Below, piece after piece: positions 2,013 through 10,921 of a DNA stretch of 64,000 nt. Position numbers and translations under genes: made by a program. Position 1 is the first letter of the stretch. Each line of letters starts with the position of its first letter. Origin of the DNA: Puniceicoccaceae bacterium (GTDB lineage: Bacteria > Verrucomicrobiota > Verrucomicrobiia > Opitutales > Coraliomargaritaceae); contig PBYS01000031.1 in assembly GCA_002729725.1 (NCBI GenBank), forward strand, positions 1 to 64,000, given 5' to 3'. The notes beneath the pieces are model-generated. The model was not told the DNA's origin, did not search any database, and saw only the letters and a list, made by a program, of their open reading frames with translations.

Positions 2013-2312
2013 TTATGCGGCATAAATCAGTTTCTTTTCCTCTTCGACTGCTTGCTGGAAGTAGGGATTGCGGAAGCGCTTTGCAGTGACCAAATCGACT
2101 GGGCGATTCAGTATGATTTCCATACGCTCCTTGAAGCCCATGAATTGCTCAAATGCGCCTTCAAATCCATCTCGCTCGAACTCGACAAGTAGGTCTACAT
2201 CACTTTGTGGTGTTGCTTTTCCCGTCGCGATTGAACCAAAAGCATAGAGTTGCCGGACGGAGAACTCGCGGCAGGCTGACTCGATCTGTTGTTCTGTTAG
2301 AGGGGGTAGCAT
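2013..2312 (-). CDS. MNT-type nucleotidyltransferase domain protein
   Basis: Small minimal nucleotidyltransferase of the MntA/COG1669 kind. The sequence shows the family signature GSX10DXD: FGSIATGKATPQSDVDLLVEF at about residues 22-42. Such proteins usually act as antitoxins that AMPylate or otherwise modify a HEPN toxin encoded next door. Here no short HepT-like gene is adjacent; the nearest HEPN candidate is the RNxxxH protein at 5,848-7,182 in the same run. ATG at 2312 is taken as the start (99 aa); a TTG three codons upstream (2321) is possible. It ends 5 nt before hsdR, so it is probably co-transcribed with it. The family is clear, the role is inferred. Confidence 0.8.
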   Translation of the reverse strand: MLPPLTEQQIESACREFSVRQLYAFGSIATGKATPQSDVDLLVEFERDGFEGAFEQFMGFKERMEIILNRPVDLVTAKRFRNPYFQQAVEEEKKLIYAA

Positions 2313-2321
2313 CGCCTTCAA

Positions 2322-2548: not shown

Positions 2549-2824
2549 TCAACCCGTGTAGTTGGCACTATCCAATCCTGCGGCGTTCACCTTGTCGGCG
2601 AGTGCGTCTAGGTGGCTATTTCGGGGTGTGTCAGCTGTCGAGTTGCTATATGGCTTCGCAATAGGGAAATGAATTGCTTCGTATTGCTCGATCACTTTAG
2701 CGAGTTTCACCATTTCCTCGTCTTCTGGACGAGCAATCGTCTCGTCTCGACTCATCCATACGCTCAATTTTTCAATCGCGGCTGCATGTTCGGCATGGCT
2801 CTGGATTTTTATCGTGTTAATCAT
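2549..2824 (-). CDS. HigA-like antitoxin N-terminal stub, 91 aa
   Basis: The first 55 residues resemble the N-terminal helical part of COG5499/HigA-type antitoxins: an initial IKIQSHAEHAAAIEKL segment, then an acidic stretch and KVIEQYEAIHFPI, the element that normally precedes the helix-turn-helix DNA-binding domain. Here the match stops at HFPIAKP. The remaining 35 residues do not look like a helix-turn-helix, and the frame stops at 2549. It begins 6 nt after the ATPase stop codon, so it is placed as the next gene of the operon. No HigB toxin is visible. It is either a decayed antitoxin or a short family member with another role. Confidence 0.5.
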   Translation of the reverse strand: MINTIKIQSHAEHAAAIEKLSVWMSRDETIARPEDEEMVKLAKVIEQYEAIHFPIAKPYSNSTADTPRNSHLDALADKVNAAGLDSANYTG

Positions 2825-2830
2825 AATGAG

Positions 2831-4585
2831 TTAATGCGAAGCTTTCCTAGTTTCCTGATAACGGAACCCTAGAAACGGATTTGCTTTGGTGAAACTTGCG
2901 CGACAGTGATCTTGCACATCGAGTTGAATGAGTTTTGCCCGCTCTTCGACTTCTATTTTCTCTCGGTTCAGTGTGAGGATATATTGAAAGTCTTCTCCCG
3001 AGTCGTCTTGTTCCTGCAAGTAATTTAAGCACTGAACCAAGGTATCTTGATCGACATCGAAGATATTATCATGCAGCAAAAATCCAGGATGACGCCCCTG
3101 TGTGCATTCGGCGAACATCAGCGCACAGTCATAGATAAACACTTTTGTGCGATCAATACTGTGGCTGCCATCATCGAGGATTCGAAGGTCAAGGTTTAAG
3201 GGCTGTTTGACAGTGGTCTTCGTGTTCACAGTCAGTGTAAACGATGCGTCGCTATTCCCCATGATACGGTCGTGTATTGCGGCGACTTGGTTGTTCATCG
3301 TTTCCTCAACTGCGGCATTCTCACTGAGCTCTTTACGTAGGTGATCGATCGCTTGTCGGCGTTCGCCCTGTAGGTCTTCTTTTTGTTGATCTGCGTCTTT
3401 GTATTCTTGAAAAAGCGCTGCCCTGCGGTGGTAGTTCTGCTGTTGATGCACTGCCATCTTTAAGCCGGAACTGAGTTCTCTTAGAGTGCCCTTGCGGTCG
3501 ATCCGGCTCACGATTTCCGAATGTTGTTGCGATAGACTTCGAATCTTGAGGTTCAGTTCACGCTGTTGCCGTTCCAAGATTGTGAGTTCATCATTCAGTA
3601 GAGAGCGCTGAAAGGATTCGATTTCCTCTTTAAATGCTCGGGCTTGTTCGAGTGATTTTTGCACAAGTTTGCCGAGTCCTGCACGTGCCCTTTCAAAAAC
3701 GATTTCGAGGTCCACCTCATCGATTGCTTCGGGCTGTGGGAGCGCGCGAATTTGGTCGATTTTAAAGTTCACACCTTTGCGGGTCGCACGTAATGCTCCG
3801 AGCTTCGCTTCGATTTCATTGAGATCTTTTTCGACTTCCGTAAATGCGGGTTCCGCACGAAGGTCGGCAAGGCCTGCTTCGATACGAGCCACCTGTGTTT
3901 TCTCTGCGTTCAGTTCCGCCGGAATGTCTTTCAGGTTGATCTCATTGCCGCGGGTTAGATCAGATTTTATTTTGGATACTAGCTTCGTTTGCCGGTCGAT
4001 TTCTTTGATCGTTTGCAAGAGTCCGCGATAGTGCACCACGTCAAGGCCCAGTAGGTAGAGGTGCGGGAGTCGGTCGGGGGGGGCATTCTTTTTCACCGGC
4101 ATCGTTCGGAGGATGTCTGAGAATTCAGATTCCTCATCTCGCATTAAGAGACTGATCAAACTTCGGAAGCTGGAGAACCCGCTTTTTTCGCCTACAAATA
4201 GTAAATCGCCGAGGAAGCGCGTTGCTTCTGCCAGCGTTGCAAAGGTCACGGATTGGCCATTACGAATAATGGTAGGCTGTTCGGGGTGTTGCAGCGAACG
4301 TCTGATTTGCAGTGAGTCCTTGCCGATCGATAGGTCCAAAATAATTGTAAGATCGTCGGGACACTTCTCGGTCGGTATTTTAGATACTCGGGTGTCTTTG
4401 AAATCACGTAAGAGCGCGAAATGGATGAATTCCACGCTCATACTTTTACCGACACCGTTCACTTTCTTCGCCTGTGTTTGGGCAGTCTCTGATTTTTCGC
4501 CCAAAATCAAATTGATGCCTGATTGGAACGCTATCGGTTCAAAGAATTGAGGCTCTGAATACAGTCGCTGGAGTCGTAGCTTCAT
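2831..4585 (-). CDS. SMC-like ATPase, DUF2326 family (ABC-3C system ATPase)
   Basis: 584-aa P-loop ATPase of the SMC/Rad50-like kind. Visible parts: N-terminal strand and Walker A NGVGKSMSVEFIHFALL (about 43-59); a long charged coiled-coil middle (about 190-420) rich in Glu, Lys, Arg and Gln; and a C-terminal ATPase half with GFLLHDNIFDVDQDTL (about 505-520), which matches the DUF2326 Walker-B region. DUF2326 ATPases are one of the ATPase types of the ABC-three-component conflict systems. The ATG at 4585 overlaps the stop of the 79-aa upstream gene (ATGA), indicating translational coupling. By family knowledge it would sense or bind invading nucleic acid and license the effector; this is inferred. 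Confidence 0.85.
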   Translation of the reverse strand: MKLRLQRLYSEPQFFEPIAFQSGINLILGEKSETAQTQAKKVNGVGKSMSVEFIHFALLRDFKDTRVSKIPTEKCPDDLTIILDLSIGKDSLQIRRSLQHPEQPTIIRNGQSVTFATLAEATRFLGDLLFVGEKSGFSSFRSLISLLMRDEESEFSDILRTMPVKKNAPPDRLPHLYLLGLDVVHYRGLLQTIKEIDRQTKLVSKIKSDLTRGNEINLKDIPAELNAEKTQVARIEAGLADLRAEPAFTEVEKDLNEIEAKLGALRATRKGVNFKIDQIRALPQPEAIDEVDLEIVFERARAGLGKLVQKSLEQARAFKEEIESFQRSLLNDELTILERQQRELNLKIRSLSQQHSEIVSRIDRKGTLRELSSGLKMAVHQQQNYHRRAALFQEYKDADQQKEDLQGERRQAIDHLRKELSENAAVEETMNNQVAAIHDRIMGNSDASFTLTVNTKTTVKQPLNLDLRILDDGSHSIDRTKVFIYDCALMFAECTQGRHPGFLLHDNIFDVDQDTLVQCLNYLQEQDDSGEDFQYILTLNREKIEVEERAKLIQLDVQDHCRASFTKANPFLGFRYQETRKASH

Positions 4586-4821
4586 TCGGTCACTTTGTAA
4601 ATGTAGGGAGCCGTGAAATCGATGACGCCTGCGGTGTGCAGAAAGATGAGCGCAAACATCATCGGGCGAGATTGGTTGATGCCATACTTTGCCAGGTGAG
4701 CGGCCACTTCTGTCAAAGATAAGCGCGCATCACTCGATTTCTCTAATTTTTTGAGAATCAAGTAGCCCACATGCACCATGGAGGTTTTCAGGGCTTCGTC
4801 TTTGGAAACAAGTGAGTGCAT
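4582..4821 (-). CDS. Small middle component of ABC-3C system, 79 aa
   Basis: Short helical protein with a winged-helix-like look: KTSMVHVGYLILKKLEKS, then LSLTEVAAHLAKYGI and MFALIFLHTAGVIDFTAPYI. Size, position and pattern fit the middle components (MC6/MC7-like) that link the ATPase to the effector in ABC-three-component systems. It lies 11 nt after the SMEK-type effector and overlaps the ATPase start by 4 nt, so all three are probably made from one transcript in fixed ratio. The function is inferred from this context and from family pattern; the exact middle-component class cannot be fixed by eye. Confidence 0.75.
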   Translation of the reverse strand: MHSLVSKDEALKTSMVHVGYLILKKLEKSSDARLSLTEVAAHLAKYGINQSRPMMFALIFLHTAGVIDFTAPYIYKVTE

Positions 4822-4832
4822 ACGGTTAAATT

Positions 4833-5786
4833 CTATTCGGGATTTGGGAAGACATTACAGCGACCAAATTCATCGGCCAGAAAATACCGCACTACGGGCT
4901 GATCGCAATCACAACCAGCTGTATGCAGTTTCTCTTGAAAATAGTCGACCAAGCCATCGAAAGCGGCGCGCGCATCCCCATTGTGTTGATCGAGAAACGC
5001 GAGACTGCGCTCCTTGAGCCAGGCCGCGCAACGCACGGAGCGCACCGGATCGGCACCCACCGCGTCGCGGGCTGCTGCGACCGCTTGAAAGCAATCGACG
5101 TGCAGTGTAAATTGTCGCTTCAGGTAGGCCGCGTGCTCGGCGAAACGTTTCAATTTCTTCTGAGCATTCGGTCCCATTTCCGGCTTGCGAGTCGGCACGC
5201 CCGATGAAATGTGCTCGATGATGTGGATGATTGCTTCGACATTTTGATCCACGCCCATGCGTAGCGCGGCACCGAGTGGCTTCAGCTCTTGGCGCAATAG
5301 AGTGAGCGCGTTCGCTTGTTGGCCGATTTCCAAATCCTGCAGCTTTTGCAGTAGATTGTTTAAGTCTAAGCGGTCTCGCTTGGGTTCGAAATCAAAGCCT
5401 TCCAGAGTCGAAGTTAAATCACCACCACTGCCTTTTTTACTTAAAAAGGGATAGATGAAGATCACGCGGTCGTAATCGGCACGATGTTTGGGCAGAAAGG
5501 TCTTAAAGGTGTCACGGATCTTCTTCGGAGTCATCGTGCTGGTGACTTGCACTGCGATCCGACTGACAGAATCGTCGAGATCAAAAGAGTCTTGATTGAT
5601 CTGTTCCGTCCAGTTCGAATTTTTCAGCGACCAGCCAAAGAGCGCGTTGAGTAGATCACGAAAGAAGGGTTCAATCTCGATATTACCATCTAGATGGCGC
5701 AAGGCAGCGTTAGCGACAAACTCTTGATCGAGACGTTTCATCCATTCCTTCGCTTCCTCCAAATTCGACTGTCGCTGAAGTGCCAT
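4833..5786 (-). CDS. SMEK-domain effector of ABC-3C system, 317 aa
   Basis: The N-terminal half (about 1-150) fits the SMEK-type domain found in ABC-3C effectors: FFRDLLNALFGWSLKN, then SFDLDDSVSRIAVQVTST (about 67-84), then a Lys-rich helix (TPKKIRDTFKTFL) and the strand YDRVIFIYPF. The D...IAVQVTS core resembles the central strands of restriction-endonuclease-fold domains, with Q where many have E. The rest is helical and ends CDCDQPVVRYFLADEFGRC, probably the ABC-3C-type C-terminal domain that binds the middle component. The ATG at 5786 is 61 nt downstream of the HEPN-like gene. Effector activity (nuclease or otherwise) is inference. Confidence 0.75.
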   Translation of the reverse strand: MALQRQSNLEEAKEWMKRLDQEFVANAALRHLDGNIEIEPFFRDLLNALFGWSLKNSNWTEQINQDSFDLDDSVSRIAVQVTSTMTPKKIRDTFKTFLPKHRADYDRVIFIYPFLSKKGSGGDLTSTLEGFDFEPKRDRLDLNNLLQKLQDLEIGQQANALTLLRQELKPLGAALRMGVDQNVEAIIHIIEHISSGVPTRKPEMGPNAQKKLKRFAEHAAYLKRQFTLHVDCFQAVAAARDAVGADPVRSVRCAAWLKERSLAFLDQHNGDARAAFDGLVDYFQEKLHTAGCDCDQPVVRYFLADEFGRCNVFPNPE

Positions 5787-5847: not shown

Positions 5848-7182
5848 TTACTCTTTGTTGATGCCTCTGCTTTTCATTAGGTCTTTCATCTCGATGGCTT
5901 GATAATTCTCGTCGCTGATCGGTCCTTCGTAACCGCAGAGTTTCGCGAAGATGATTGAAAAGGCATTTCCCAGTTTGGGGTAGTCGTTGAAATACGCGGT
6001 GCTCTCCACTTCCTGCATGTGCCATAGGCGACCATGGGCGAGTTCGTTGCGGTGTTCAGGTCGTAGGTTGTAGATTTCCTGAATCCAGCCATTCCAATCG
6101 AAGCCGAGTTTCTTGCTGGCAGTTTTCCATACCTTGTCGGTTCCACCATCGTCTTCCATTTCGGCCGCGATTCGCATGAGGCCATCCAGAGCGGAGCACA
6201 GCATTAGCATTTGCGTCGAGTCGGGGAGTTGTCCTGTGCTGATTTCATTCACATTCCAGAGGAGGAACATTAAACGCTTACGGCTCTTCTCAGGTAGCAG
6301 AGCCAATCCTTCGGCGACTCTAGGAGTCAGGTTATATAAGGGAGAGTCTTTTTCGTTTATGACGTTGAGCCATAGTCGCTTATTTTGGGGTCTGAAATTC
6401 GATTGCTTTAGTTTTAAGTGAGATCGTATCCAGCGCGTGCCTCCCGTTTGAGCATTCCAGAAATAGTAGTAGAGCGGCCAAGGCTTGAACCCATTCGTGA
6501 AACCGACGGCGTTCATCACATTCTGAAAGAAAGCTTCCGAATGTTCTGGGCTATTGATGCTCTTGTCCTTGGATCTGGCGTGTAAGTGCAATTCACCTTT
6601 TTGTTCGATGATCGCAGCCTCCCATGTGTCACCCTCGAAGGTTTGTGTGTCCATGGATGAAGAATAGAGTTCGTTTAGGAAATCATTCCTTTTAGTGGTT
6701 TTAGTCCCCGAGTTCGGCACTTGTAGTTTCGGGCCGTGGAAGATGGCGTGCGCGTGAAACTCAAACGACTCTTTGTCTTCCGATGGTTCGATATAGTTAG
6801 GTGCCGGTAATTGAAGTGTCCGTGACGACAATTTGATGGAGTTGATGCCAGGAGTGGTTGTCTGTCCGAAGTTTGCGGGAGTCACATCATCACACTCAAA
6901 ATAAGTGCTCCCATTCAGATAGCCTCTGACAGAAACCACATTATCTTTCGTTAGAATCAAAGCACCGCTTGTTCGTTCTCCAAGTCCGAATATTTTGTCC
7001 ACGGCTCCGTGGGAGAAATAGTTATCAAATACTTGAAAAGTGAAATTGCTTCCTTTGGCTGTCAGTTCGGCGGGCGCTTTGATTGTCTTTCCATTGGCTA
7101 TGATTTCAAAATTGGGAATGATCAGTTTCAAGCGCCCCTGCGATAGTGGCTTAATAATCAACTCTCGAATTTTGTCATCCAT
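5848..7182 (-). CDS. Putative HEPN-domain defence protein, 444 aa, RNxxxH motif
   Basis: I do not recognise the full-length family. The N-terminal two-thirds is mainly beta-like and resembles the N-terminal sensory region of ApeA-type or other large HEPN defence proteins (low certainty). The C-terminal third is helical and contains EHRNELAHGRL (about residues 376-386), an exact RNxxxH motif as used by HEPN ribonucleases. The stretch before it (TQMLMLCSALDGLMRIAAEM and onwards) fits the first HEPN helix. The start is taken as ATG at 7182; a TTG three codons upstream is less likely. It sits between the 303-aa gene and the ABC-3C trio on the same strand. By family knowledge a HEPN ribonuclease would cut RNA to abort infection; this is inference. 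Confidence 0.6.
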   Translation of the reverse strand: MDDKIRELIIKPLSQGRLKLIIPNFEIIANGKTIKAPAELTAKGSNFTFQVFDNYFSHGAVDKIFGLGERTSGALILTKDNVVSVRGYLNGSTYFECDDVTPANFGQTTTPGINSIKLSSRTLQLPAPNYIEPSEDKESFEFHAHAIFHGPKLQVPNSGTKTTKRNDFLNELYSSSMDTQTFEGDTWEAAIIEQKGELHLHARSKDKSINSPEHSEAFFQNVMNAVGFTNGFKPWPLYYYFWNAQTGGTRWIRSHLKLKQSNFRPQNKRLWLNVINEKDSPLYNLTPRVAEGLALLPEKSRKRLMFLLWNVNEISTGQLPDSTQMLMLCSALDGLMRIAAEMEDDGGTDKVWKTASKKLGFDWNGWIQEIYNLRPEHRNELAHGRLWHMQEVESTAYFNDYPKLGNAFSIIFAKLCGYEGPISDENYQAIEMKDLMKSRGINKE

Positions 7183-7255
7183 GGCATACAATTCTTCGGT
7201 GAAGGTGGTTTGTTAATAGGCGAGGGAAAAGGCCAGCTTGGCTAGGTGACGATTA

Positions 7256-8167
7256 TCAAGATCCACGATACGTGGCATCCAAGTCTATCCTATCTGTGAG
7301 ATACGGTAAGAAGCCAACGAGTAGAATTGTAACGCCAAGCATGTCACGCATGTCAACCGGGCGTATAGCATTACTAGGAGTTCCTGCGTGGCGAATGCCC
7401 GGATAGTTACAGGTGAAGTTGTATAGTTTTTTCATGGCGTCCTTCAAGCTGTTATGCGGCCAAGTGCTCAGGTCGTTACATATTGAGCCGATAGTATTAT
7501 TGTTCGTATCTGAGTGAAGAGTGGCTAGTGCTTCCAGTAAGTTAATTTGCTTCACCATGCACGTTTTGATCTTTCTGGCGCTGCTATCGCTGTTCAGGTC
7601 TGAAACTGATTCCTCAAAGTCAGTCATTAATTCGTCTAAGTGTGGATCGTTCGCAGTAGTTTGCTTTAAGGAGCTAATAAGAGAGGTAAAGATTCCCGGC
7701 AGTGTCGGGCATAATTCGCAAGAGGATCTTAGTTCGTATCGGAGGCTGTATCTTTGTATTATGGTGCGCAGTAGAGATGAGTAACGTATGGCTAGGATCT
7801 CATCATATTCCTCAAAGACTGCGTAGGCTTCTTGCATGAAGCCTACGAGTGCTGCTTCTGAGGCAAAGTAGTCGGCATTGATGGATTTGAATTCATCAAC
7901 TGCGCGTGCTGGATCGCTGACAATCGTCGCCAACTCGATTGGACGAGTAAGGATCGTGTCTGTCTCCGTGTCGTATGTGACGAATTTGAGTTCGTCTTTG
8001 AACGCATTATAAACCGCCCTGTATAGATCAGGCATGAGATCTTCGGATACCTCGAAGTCTTCACCAAAGGCGCACTCTGGATCTGTAAATTCAAATTCCA
8101 AGTCTTGAACTGGGTACCAAAGCGAAGCCCATAATTCATCCCAAATAGCTAAAAATGTGCCTTTCAT
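7256..8167 (-). CDS. Conserved unknown with Abi/HEPN-like C-terminus, 303 aa
   Basis: Helical, acidic protein with no sure family name. The C-terminal segment YNFTCNYPGIRHAGTP...DMRDMLGVTILLVGFLPYL resembles the end of abortive-infection proteins with degenerate HEPN domains, where a GIRHA-type motif precedes a hydrophobic helix. The ATG at 8167 is preferred because it begins one base after the hsdS stop codon (8169-8171). The frame stays open to an upstream in-frame ATG at 8227, inside hsdS. Position directly behind hsdS suggests co-expression with the modification genes. It may be a phage-sensing or abortive component; this is inference. Confidence 0.55.
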   Translation of the reverse strand: MKGTFLAIWDELWASLWYPVQDLEFEFTDPECAFGEDFEVSEDLMPDLYRAVYNAFKDELKFVTYDTETDTILTRPIELATIVSDPARAVDEFKSINADYFASEAALVGFMQEAYAVFEEYDEILAIRYSSLLRTIIQRYSLRYELRSSCELCPTLPGIFTSLISSLKQTTANDPHLDELMTDFEESVSDLNSDSSARKIKTCMVKQINLLEALATLHSDTNNNTIGSICNDLSTWPHNSLKDAMKKLYNFTCNYPGIRHAGTPSNAIRPVDMRDMLGVTILLVGFLPYLTDRIDLDATYRGS

Positions 8168-8168
8168 A

Positions 8169-9341
8169 CTAAAGTTTCCCGTTGAAGGCTCGTTGTTGGA
8201 GGGCGGCGTAGAGGGTGTCGAGTTCATCGAGTTGGCGGCGCATGCGTGCCTTCTGGGCTTCCACTTTTTCGACGATGGCCGCGAAGTGTTGTTGGAGTTC
8301 GTGGGGAGGAAAGAATACAGGGGCAGTTTTTATTAACGCAATATTTAGCGTGGGTTGGCTAACTGTTCGTGTTTCTTTTAAGAAATAACGTTGAACACTT
8401 GGTGCTCGTAAGCAGTGCATCATAAATTCTCGGCTAATTTCCTCCTTGAGGGGAATGCGTGCTACTGCCCTCGCAATATTATAGCCTTTCGCAGATTTCG
8501 GGACACGACAAATGGTTCCGACCGAACCGACGCAACTAACAAGAAGTTCACGACCATTGAGGCGCGAGCGGCTATATTTTTTCTCAATTTCAGGCGATAT
8601 ACATTTTACTTTAGTTGTATTAAGTTCTCCTGATACAAAATCACCAACGCGAATCAGCGGTTTACCGGTCGGATCATCGTCGCCGGGTTGAACGACTCCA
8701 TAGTTGATTTTGTCATCGCCTTCAATCAACGAAGACAGTTCTTGCTGCTCCCAGCCCTTTGGGTTGGTGACGGGGTCGCCGAAGAGGTCGAGGAAGGTGG
8801 ATTGGAGGAGGGTGTCGAGCTGGGCGAGGGCCTCGCGGCGCTTCGCCCGCAAGCTGTCCGCCGCATCCAAGATGCCCGCGATCCGCTTTTGCTCCGATAA
8901 CGGGGGGAGCGGGATTTTGAGGGATTTGATGATTGTTTGGCTAATATTCGGTTGGCCTCCGCCGACTCTTTGAGAGAGTAAATGATCCTTCGCTGACTTG
9001 AGCACCCAGTAAAGATAATCGAGGTCGCAAATATTTGTATCGGGATAAATATTGCAGATCGCTTGATTTGTAGCCGCTGTGATTCCGAGCTTTGAAACTT
9101 GGCCAACTGTTGCGCCATACATTGCAATTAAGATTGCACCGGGTTGGAGTAACTTGGCCGATGATCCTTTAAGGCCAGCTTCTGTTATGTATTCGCTTGC
9201 GGTGTCTACAATACTTCGAGCTAACTCACCTGATTTGACCCAAGGGATTGTGCCGTTGACGTAATACTCCTGCTGCTTTGATCGACTGGGAGTTCCTCCG
9301 CTGCCAGTTCTACAAAAGTCTTTTATTTGTAGTAGCTGCAT
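8169..9341 (-). CDS. hsdS: Type I restriction enzyme specificity subunit HsdS
   Basis: 390-aa DNA-recognition subunit with two target-recognition domains (about 1-160 and 200-350), each followed by a conserved helical spacer. The central spacer is PLPPLSEQKRIAGILDAADS with QLDTLLQSTFLDLFGDPV; the distal one is PHELQQHFAAIVEKVEAQKAR with LDTLYAALQQRAFNG. These are hallmarks of HsdS. The start codon shares one base with the hsdM stop (TAATG at 9339-9343), so translation is coupled. The target sequence cannot be read from the protein. HsdS defines the specificity of both methylation and restriction. Confidence 0.97.
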   Translation of the reverse strand: MQLLQIKDFCRTGSGGTPSRSKQQEYYVNGTIPWVKSGELARSIVDTASEYITEAGLKGSSAKLLQPGAILIAMYGATVGQVSKLGITAATNQAICNIYPDTNICDLDYLYWVLKSAKDHLLSQRVGGGQPNISQTIIKSLKIPLPPLSEQKRIAGILDAADSLRAKRREALAQLDTLLQSTFLDLFGDPVTNPKGWEQQELSSLIEGDDKINYGVVQPGDDDPTGKPLIRVGDFVSGELNTTKVKCISPEIEKKYSRSRLNGRELLVSCVGSVGTICRVPKSAKGYNIARAVARIPLKEEISREFMMHCLRAPSVQRYFLKETRTVSQPTLNIALIKTAPVFFPPHELQQHFAAIVEKVEAQKARMRRQLDELDTLYAALQQRAFNGKL

Positions 9342-10921
9342 TACAGCATTCCCTCCAATTCCTTGCGGCCTGCTTCAATCTCGGCGTCGAGTTGGGCGAT
9401 GGTGGCGAGGATCTCTTTGGGGGCGGCATATTCGACCGCTTCGTATTCCACTTCCTTGTAGCGATTGATCGAGAGGTCGTAGTCGTTGGCGGCGATTTCG
9501 GCCTTGGGGACTAGGAAGCTGCGCTCCGTTCGCTTGCGGGTCGCTTCGCTCGAAGTTTGAAGTTTGAGGGGTGAAGTTTGAAGGGATTGCCAGCGCTGGA
9601 GAATATCGGGCAGGTTGTCCTTCTCGATGTATTCGGGGAGGTTTGCGCCGTCGTTCTTGGCTTGGAACTCCTCATTCTTAATTCGTAATTCCTCATTCAC
9701 CGCAGGTGTCCGCTTGTCGTCGAGCGTGTAGCCGTCGGCTTGCATGTCGTAGAACCAGACATTGTCGGTGCCGCCGGAGTTGGTCTTGGTAAAGAACAGG
9801 ATGGCGGTGGAGACGCCCGCGTAGGGTTTGAAGACGCCGCTCGGCATCGAAATAATGCCGTCGAGCTTTTGTTTTTCGACCAGGATTTTGCGCAATTCCT
9901 TGTGTGCCTTGGAAGAGCCGAAGAGCACGCCGTCGGGCACGATCACCGCTGCGCGTCCGCCTGTGGTGAGCAGGCGCAGGAAGAGGGCGAGGAATAGTAG
10001 CTCGGTCTTCTTGGTTTTGACGATTTGCAGTAGGTCCTTGGCGGTGCTCTCGTAGTCGAGACTGCCTGCGAAGGGTGGATTGGCTAGAATCAGGGAGTAG
10101 GCTTCGGCGTCGCCCGCGTGGGCTTCTTCCAGTGAGTCCTTGTAGCGAATGTCAGGATTCTCAACGCCGTGGACCAGCATGTTCATCGAACCGATGCGCA
10201 GCATGGTGCTGTCAAAGTCGTAGCCGTGAAAGGTGCCCTCGTTGAAACGCTTGCGACTGGTGGCGTCTTTATAAATCGCGTCGCCGTGGTGGTCGGTCAG
10301 ATATTCCGAGGCGGCGATGAGGAAGCCTGCCGTGCCACATGCTGGATCGCAAATGGTGTCCTTCGGGGTGGGAGCCATCATATCCACCATCAATTTGATG
10401 ATGTGGCGGGGCGTGCGGAATTGGCCGTTTTGCCCCGCAGAGGCGATCTTGCCCAGCATGTATTCGTAGAGGTCGCCCTTGGTGTCGCGGTCGGCCATGT
10501 CGATACTGTCGAGTTGATCCACCACCGAGGCCAGCACACGGGGGGAGGGCATCATGAAAGTGGCGTCCTTCATGTGCTGGGTGTAGGTGCTATCGGCCTC
10601 GCCGTCGCCTTGATCCGATTTGCCGAGTTCCTTCATGAACTTGAACACATCGTCGCGCACGGTCTTGAACATGTCCTCTGGCGCGAAGTCCTTAAAGCGC
10701 GACCAGCGCAGATTGTCTTGCTCGCCAGTGAAGATCGGCTCCTCGATGGGCTGCTTTAAGCGGTTGGCCTTGCTCTCTTTGAGCATGTGCAATTCGTCGA
10801 GCCGCTTGATGAAGAGCAGGTAAGTGAGTTGCTCTATGACGGAGAGCGGGTTGGAGATGCCACCGGACCACATCGTGTCCCAGATTCTGTCTACTTTGGA
10901 TTTAAGTTCGCCTGTAATCAT
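9341..10921 (-). CDS. hsdM: Type I restriction-modification DNA methyltransferase HsdM
   Basis: 526-aa N6-adenine methyltransferase subunit. The N-terminal HsdM_N helical domain is at about 5-150. SAM-binding motif I DPACGTAGFLIAA is near 190 and catalytic motif IV NPPF near 282. Near residues 407-421 and 445-459 the C-terminal part carries low-complexity peptides (LRIKNEEFQAKND and TSPLKLQTSSEAT). Their DNA looks like the AATTCTTAATTC-type and GAAGTTTGAAG-type repeats found between genes in many genomes. These lie before the conserved AANDYDLSINRYKE end. It is the first gene of the defence operon. Functional despite the insertions, as far as motifs show. Confidence 0.97.
   Translation of the reverse strand: MITGELKSKVDRIWDTMWSGGISNPLSVIEQLTYLLFIKRLDELHMLKESKANRLKQPIEEPIFTGEQDNLRWSRFKDFAPEDMFKTVRDDVFKFMKELGKSDQGDGEADSTYTQHMKDATFMMPSPRVLASVVDQLDSIDMADRDTKGDLYEYMLGKIASAGQNGQFRTPRHIIKLMVDMMAPTPKDTICDPACGTAGFLIAASEYLTDHHGDAIYKDATSRKRFNEGTFHGYDFDSTMLRIGSMNMLVHGVENPDIRYKDSLEEAHAGDAEAYSLILANPPFAGSLDYESTAKDLLQIVKTKKTELLFLALFLRLLTTGGRAAVIVPDGVLFGSSKAHKELRKILVEKQKLDGIISMPSGVFKPYAGVSTAILFFTKTNSGGTDNVWFYDMQADGYTLDDKRTPAVNEELRIKNEEFQAKNDGANLPEYIEKDNLPDILQRWQSLQTSPLKLQTSSEATRKRTERSFLVPKAEIAANDYDLSINRYKEVEYEAVEYAAPKEILATIAQLDAEIEAGRKELEGML
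9544..9699. repeat. Short repeats inserted in frame in hsdM
   Basis: Two simple-repeat stretches are visible: 9544-9586, built from gaagtttgaag-type units, and 9659-9699, built from attcttaattcgtaattc-type units. Both are translated in hsdM without breaking the frame. They sit in a variable linker of the methyltransferase C-terminal part. Confidence 0.6.

Follow-up and report, generated by a model that had tools for sequence, protein, structure and literature searches.

Gene organization of the locus

The window (the whole stretch of DNA analysed, 64,000 nucleotides) carries a type I restriction-modification (R-M) operon on its minus strand. The genes hsdM, hsdS and hsdR occur together, in the order hsdM, hsdS, cargo genes and hsdR (Table 1), and one of the cargo genes encodes a two-part protein with a predicted C-terminal HEPN domain. 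Its ORF starts with an ATG at 7182 and ends with the stop codon at 5848–5850. An in-frame TTG lies upstream at 7191, and its use as the start would add three amino acids. Over the same interval the plus strand contains many stop codons. The sequence-only reading of this DNA had given the coordinates and length of the ORF correctly; it had missed the minus strand, and the position of the gene between hsdS and hsdR was absent from its account. A scan of the operon for promoters and terminators found sites no more numerous than in shuffles, and the operon structure is therefore drawn from gene order and spacing only.

Table 1. Features of the window and STAS/HATPase genes at the loci of other genomes
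Feature	Positions	Strand	Basis or remark
hsdM, type I methyltransferase	9341..10921	minus	HsdM_N/N6_Mtase matches
hsdS, type I specificity subunit	8169..9341	minus	Methylase_S match
303-aa protein directly after hsdS	7256..8166	minus	PADLOC candidate PDC-S32; extendable to 8227 (323 aa)
Two-part protein gene (N-terminal region and C-terminal HEPN), 444 aa	5848..7182	minus	ORF, relatives, structure models
N-terminal region, residues 1–280	6343..7182	minus	Family-wide conservation; no occurrence apart from the family
HEPN domain, residues 294–420 (span matched by HEPN structures)	5923..6303	minus	C-terminal model and full-length model
Predicted RNase motif RNELAH, residues 378–383	6034..6051	minus	R378 and H383 invariant
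SMEK-domain protein, next gene downstream of the HEPN gene	4833..5786	minus	Gap of 61 nt
79-aa ORF between the SMEK and DUF2326 genes	4582..4821	minus	Probably a small partner
DUF2326 ATPase-like protein	2831..4585	minus	PADLOC PDC-M68B
91-aa protein	2549..2824	minus	Weak PD-Lambda-2_B match (PADLOC)
MntA-like nucleotidyltransferase	2013..2321	minus	PDC-S09
hsdR, N-terminal 669 aa	1..2007	minus	Runs off the contig end
STAS/HATPase gene, locus L026	8436-9721	minus	
STAS/HATPase gene, locus L025	10077-11045	plus	
STAS/HATPase gene, locus L082	4174-5417		Reverse-complement coordinates

Conservation of the RNELAH motif

The RNELAH motif that the earlier reading had placed near residue 380 is indeed present in the helical C-terminus, at residues 378–383. 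Taken by itself, an RNxxxH motif is at chance level and is not evidence, as the non-overlapping ORFs of the window (19,024 residues) contain it once against 0.82 expected from shuffles. It becomes meaningful because R378 and H383 are conserved across remote members of the family. In an alignment of seven members at about 20% identity, 8 of the 444 columns are invariant and these two residues are among them; the chance that two preset columns would both be invariant is 0.00028. The seven motifs read RNELAH, RNQLAH, RNNMAH, RNSLAH, RDPLAH, RNPLFH and RHKSVH. Everything between R378 and H383 is thus variable (NELA, NQLA, NNMA, NSLA, DPLA, NPLF and HKSV), with N, D or H at position 379. The R and H are also kept in three copies outside the alignment (RNPLAH, RHPLAH and RNDILH), and hence in all ten family copies that reach the motif. 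The conserved Rx4-6H motif of the HEPN superfamily is thus found here, invariant in seven of seven aligned members and retained in the three further copies.

Predicted HEPN fold of the C-terminus

An AlphaFold2 model of residues 281–444, built from an input of two sequences, reached a mean pLDDT of 65.5 and a pTM of 0.66. It is a helical bundle in which R378 lies near the end of one helix and H383 just beyond. When the model was compared with the PDB by VIA-align 2, ranks 1–15 were all occupied by HEPN structures or by HEPN-bearing toxins or nucleotidyltransferase partners, with Z from 8.3 to 6.0. These matches included 2hsb (Z 8.3 over 118 residues), sacsin (3o10, 7.9), HEPN-MNT (8xeh, 7.8), HepT (6m6w, 7.4), YutE (1ylm, 7.0) and Csm6' (8pe3, 6.3), followed by AbiV (9bj7, 6.2) and HepS (9oik, 6.1). 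Unrelated helical proteins enter the list below this block, from Z 5.5. The matched part is residues 14–140 of the model, corresponding to residues 294–420 of the protein, and in the full-length model residues 294–421 match YutE (1ylm). The top Foldseek match of the C-terminal model was again a HEPN protein, but its E value was poor (0.81); a Foldseek search of PDB and viral models returned nothing below E 0.38.

For helical bundles a Z of about 8 is not decisive taken alone, and the HEPN assignment is made on the unbroken list of HEPN matches together with the independently conserved motif, not on Z alone. The all-helical HEPN bundle is present in a model of moderate confidence, and on that model the C-terminus is predicted to be a HEPN domain in which the putative RNase motif is intact. 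The earlier reading had proposed a HEPN-like helical C-terminus and had staked it on a four-helix bundle appearing in a predicted structure; both the bundle and the family-wide invariance of R and H bear it out.

The N-terminal region

Residues 1–280 are conserved as a unit together with the HEPN part across the family, which gives the protein a fixed two-part architecture, and the family alignment contains the signature GTxTTxxNxFLxEL at residues 159–172. When residues 1–280 were used as the sole query against 286 genomes, the matches recovered were all family members or broken copies of them, and at the depth searched the region appears to be family-specific. The closest relative of the N-terminus (L034, G517:C108:2119-2715; 32% identity) is truncated and lacks the HEPN part; an integrase-like gene and an hsdM-like gene lie near it.

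The view that this N-terminus cannot be named by sequence holds, as searches of Pfam, NCBIfam, PADLOC and PDB sequences gave nothing above cut-offs. The full-length model, likewise built from two sequences, has a mean pLDDT of 43, and the N-terminal region is beta-rich in it, with strands placed at low confidence in residues 20–253. In this model, residues 139–252 resemble TBP-like folds (Z 5–6.5), and the full length matches RnlA in the same domain order at Z 4.4–4.9 (6y2r, 4.9; 6y2p, 4.7). We treat the TBP-like or RnlA-like resemblance of the N-terminal region as a hint only. Given these weak hints, or the precedent of ApeA described below, the N-terminal region need not be a new fold, and a sensor role for it is something that we only infer.

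A rare family in Verrucomicrobiota

A single-sequence search of genomes within the phylum recovered three relatives, L002 (E 3e-20), L003 (2e-11) and L004 (7e-5); L002 and L006, a Coraliomargarita record, are one and the same stretch, and this kinship at genus level assigns the marine bacterium carrying the window to Coraliomargarita. A profile of four members then matched L011–L014 at E values of 1e-24 to 1e-37, plus several fragments. Family matches occur in 12 of the 384 genomes of the class (E up to 0.001), and a later seven-member profile, run against 132 genomes of the order and 387 of the phylum, added none to these. The genome of the window has one copy of the gene. No match was obtained when the 444-aa protein was searched by tblastn in plasmids and phages, when viral contigs were scanned by pattern, or when a genome-contig collection was scanned with the 444-aa protein; a scan of that collection with the four-member alignment returned only the Coraliomargarita relative. 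Some copies are broken, with an in-frame TAA in L025 and fragments in L017, L018 and L032. L005 was rejected as a relative, being a chance match to an unrelated protein. The family is rare.

Searches of the 444-aa protein and its relatives against Pfam, NCBIfam, PADLOC and PDB sequences gave nothing above cut-offs. This is a real HEPN family, previously uncatalogued as far as these four resources show. It is new to the catalogues searched, while its kind (probably a HEPN defence RNase, comparable to ApeA, RnlA or PrrC) and its kind of place are known.

Comparison with ApeA, RnlA, PrrC and HEPN-MNT systems

PrrC is an anticodon nuclease with an N-terminal ABC ATPase. The window gene resembles prrC in being a putative HEPN RNase gene nested in hsdMSR, with hsdM and hsdS upstream, hsdR downstream and all genes on the minus strand; it differs in that its product has no ATPase family match and an unrelated N-terminus. 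HepT toxins are single-domain proteins paired with an adjacent MNT gene. The fold matches 8xeh, 6m6w and 1ylm and the MntA-like gene of the same operon recall these HEPN-MNT (HepT/MntA) pairs, whereas the window protein has two parts and its gene does not adjoin an MNT gene.

In architecture, the protein recalls ApeA and RnlA. ApeA has an N-terminal region of about 300 residues, mostly beta strands, followed by a HEPN domain with Rx4H, and occurs in some R-M operons (PMC3710099). According to the title of a 2026 preprint cited in PMC13405049, ApeA is reportedly activated by deoxydinucleotides. The window protein likewise has a beta-rich N-terminal region (in a low-confidence model), then a C-terminal HEPN domain, and lies in an R-M operon, but neither it nor most of its relatives have a Pfam match. 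HEPN_Apea (PF18739) gave no match to the window protein even when E values as high as 10 were allowed, nor did Pfam detect the ApeA_NTD1 (PF18862) N-terminus in it. Among the relatives, L013 came closest: HEPN_Apea aligned at the expected place but stayed below the cut-off of 24.4 bits, scoring 13.6 bits (E 0.092). When the family profile was aligned by hhalign with 12 ApeA-like proteins, taken from loci fetched by homology and with Pfam domains verified for L023, the probability was 6.8% for the whole length, over a 77-column stretch only, and 0.4% for the HEPN parts. Membership in ApeA was rejected on both the whole and the C-terminal alignments.

The RNase LS family has N-terminal alpha/beta domains, TBP-like in some members, before its HEPN domain (PMC7180214, PMC3710099). 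The RnlA motif RHSLFH resembles RHKSVH of L014 and RHPLAH of L018, and a weak match of the full-length model to RnlA keeps the order of the domains, at an N-terminal confidence too low to rely on. By contrast, K-12 RnlA has all four RnlA Pfam domains (PF19417, PF15935, PF19034 and PF18869) and the window protein has none of them. General Pfam, NCBIfam and PADLOC searches gave no RnlB-like annotation among the neighbours in the window. Against K-12 RnlA and two homologues, hhalign gave a probability of 0.8–2%, the aligned piece being the motif region (with reversed-alignment controls), and RnlA membership was rejected by sequence. For all the likeness in the arrangement of its parts, sequence comparison places the protein in neither ApeA nor RnlA.

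The hsdS-hsdR slot and the loci of relatives

In two other operons (L025 and L026), a HEPN relative directly follows hsdS, and STAS/HATPase genes and then hsdR come after it. Between these operons and that of the window, HsdM is 74% identical and HsdR 65–69% identical (the latter measured on the window fragment), whereas the HEPN protein of the window cannot be aligned by BLASTP with those of L025 and L026, which share 44% identity with each other. The cargo either diverges at a much higher rate than the R-M genes or was gained on more than one occasion. The HsdR of L026 has ResIII, HSDR_N and EcoEI_R_C matches, and a DUF4145 domain was seen at its N-terminus.

Other relatives lie elsewhere. 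In L031 the gene is situated between HmaA/TmtA-like and HmaB genes of the Hma defence system, in L029 it adjoins a HEC-02A ATPase gene and in L028 a SIR2-like gene, while no clear defence genes were found among the neighbours in L027 and L030. Because these last two loci are without obvious defence neighbours, the R-M link of the family is recurrent and not universal. In L029, an RNTIVH motif is present in a 212-aa protein (9784-10422, minus strand) encoded beside the Coraliomargarita relative, which makes this protein a candidate for a second HEPN protein in tandem.

Seven further operons with a related hsdM (L081–L087) were compared for the contents of the slot, which were read from their ORFs, mostly without family searches. 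Most of them have other genes in or around the hsdS-hsdR interval, including AAA/AbiE-like and Fic-like genes, very large ORFs and STAS/HATPase genes without HEPN; in two of them no such genes occur. Across Verrucomicrobiota genomes, the interval between hsdS and hsdR in this type I R-M family thus serves as an exchangeable cargo bay. Links to R-M systems are known for at least 16 HEPN clades, the model case being PrrC, nested in hsdMSR (PMC3710099), and DarTG2 is a recent example of a system located between hsdS and hsdR (PMC12255303). That unrelated genes can replace one another in this bay in Verrucomicrobiota is relevant to the assembly of defence islands, and the present family adds to the RNA-level weapons of this slot a predicted HEPN RNase family that Pfam, NCBIfam and PADLOC, as searched, do not contain. 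As a side observation, the STAS/HATPase protein recurs as type I R-M cargo with or without a HEPN gene, and in L026 and L082 a DUF4325 STAS-like partner lies beside it.

Proposed role

HEPN enzymes that cut RNA are a known kind of phage-defence weapon. We consider the window protein to be probably a defence HEPN RNase that has its own regulatory N-terminal region and for which R-M and other defence loci serve as carriers. The data show the R-M slot, the two-part architecture, the conservation of the motif and, as a prediction, the HEPN fold; from this anatomy we infer RNase activity and dimerization, together with N-terminal sensing and a defence function, along the following lines. The product would be a metal-independent endoribonuclease whose HEPN domain is presumably dimeric, so that paired R378/H383 motifs would cut RNA. 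It would be held off in uninfected cells and activated by way of the N-terminal region, the proposed binding site of an infection signal or a phage product. The RNase would travel as modular defence cargo, here in the hsdS-hsdR slot, and a phage escaping DNA cleavage would then meet a second line at the RNA level, through abortive infection or cleavage of phage RNA. There is a bolder version, in which the N-terminal region is a new sensor of phage signals or nucleotides and the protein, having evolved in Verrucomicrobiota, is an immune system of a single gene that shifts among restriction, Hma and other defence loci and answers to a trigger unlike those of ApeA, RnlA and PrrC; in our estimate this version is rather doubtful. 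R378 and H383, together with the small set of natural relatives, offer a means to test the RNase and trigger questions.

Residence between hsdS and hsdR also suggests a guard of the PrrC kind, in which the HEPN RNase would be silenced by the HsdMSR of its own operon and freed when a phage anti-restriction protein disables R-M. The gene shares its setting in a type I R-M operon with prrC (PMC3710099), and relatives occupy the same slot in L025 and L026. Direct control by HsdMSR is weakened because family members also occur away from type I R-M loci, near Hma or SIR2-like genes or without defence neighbours, and because the slot takes quite different genes in related operons, so that a place in it does not by itself imply control by R-M. 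The contrast between closely similar HsdM subunits and unalignable HEPN proteins also argues against a conserved interface, and the window protein lacks the ABC ATPase domain of PrrC. We judge such a guard unlikely.

It is quite unlikely that the protein is the toxin of a toxin-antitoxin pair, with the PDC-S32-like 303/323-aa protein, the SMEK protein or the MntA-like protein as the antitoxin. HEPN toxins do pair with RnlB-type or MNT antitoxins (PMC7180214; PMC12988326), HEPN-MNT toxins are among the matches of the C-terminal model, and 3.5 kb further downstream the operon contains the MntA-like gene. This gene does not adjoin the HEPN gene, however, and an N-terminal region of about 280 residues would be unusual for an MNT-paired HepT toxin. 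Moreover, no neighbour is common to the loci: STAS/HATPase genes are found in L025 and L026, an ATPase gene and the gene of the RNTIVH protein in L029, and nothing fitting in L027 and L030. Finally, a HEPN module that binds RNA or nucleotides without RNase activity is highly improbable here, for although some HEPN domains without the motif probably only bind RNA (MtlR; PMC3710099) and position 379 varies in this family, such domains have lost the motif, whereas R and H are invariant here with everything between them variable.

Other cargo of the window operon

Returning to the probable defence HEPN RNase and its neighbours, the SMEK gene, the 79-aa ORF, the DUF2326 gene and the 91-aa gene form a compact block (2549-5786, minus strand) that resembles a three-component ABC-type conflict system within the R-M operon. 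The MntA-like gene lies 5 nt before hsdR and has no obvious adjacent HepT partner. The PDC-S32-like protein ends in an Abi_C-like 'PGIRHAG' stretch (NYPGIRHAGTPSNAIRPVDMRDMLGVT) resembling an Abi_C/HEPN-type motif, and it is possibly a second HEPN-like effector.
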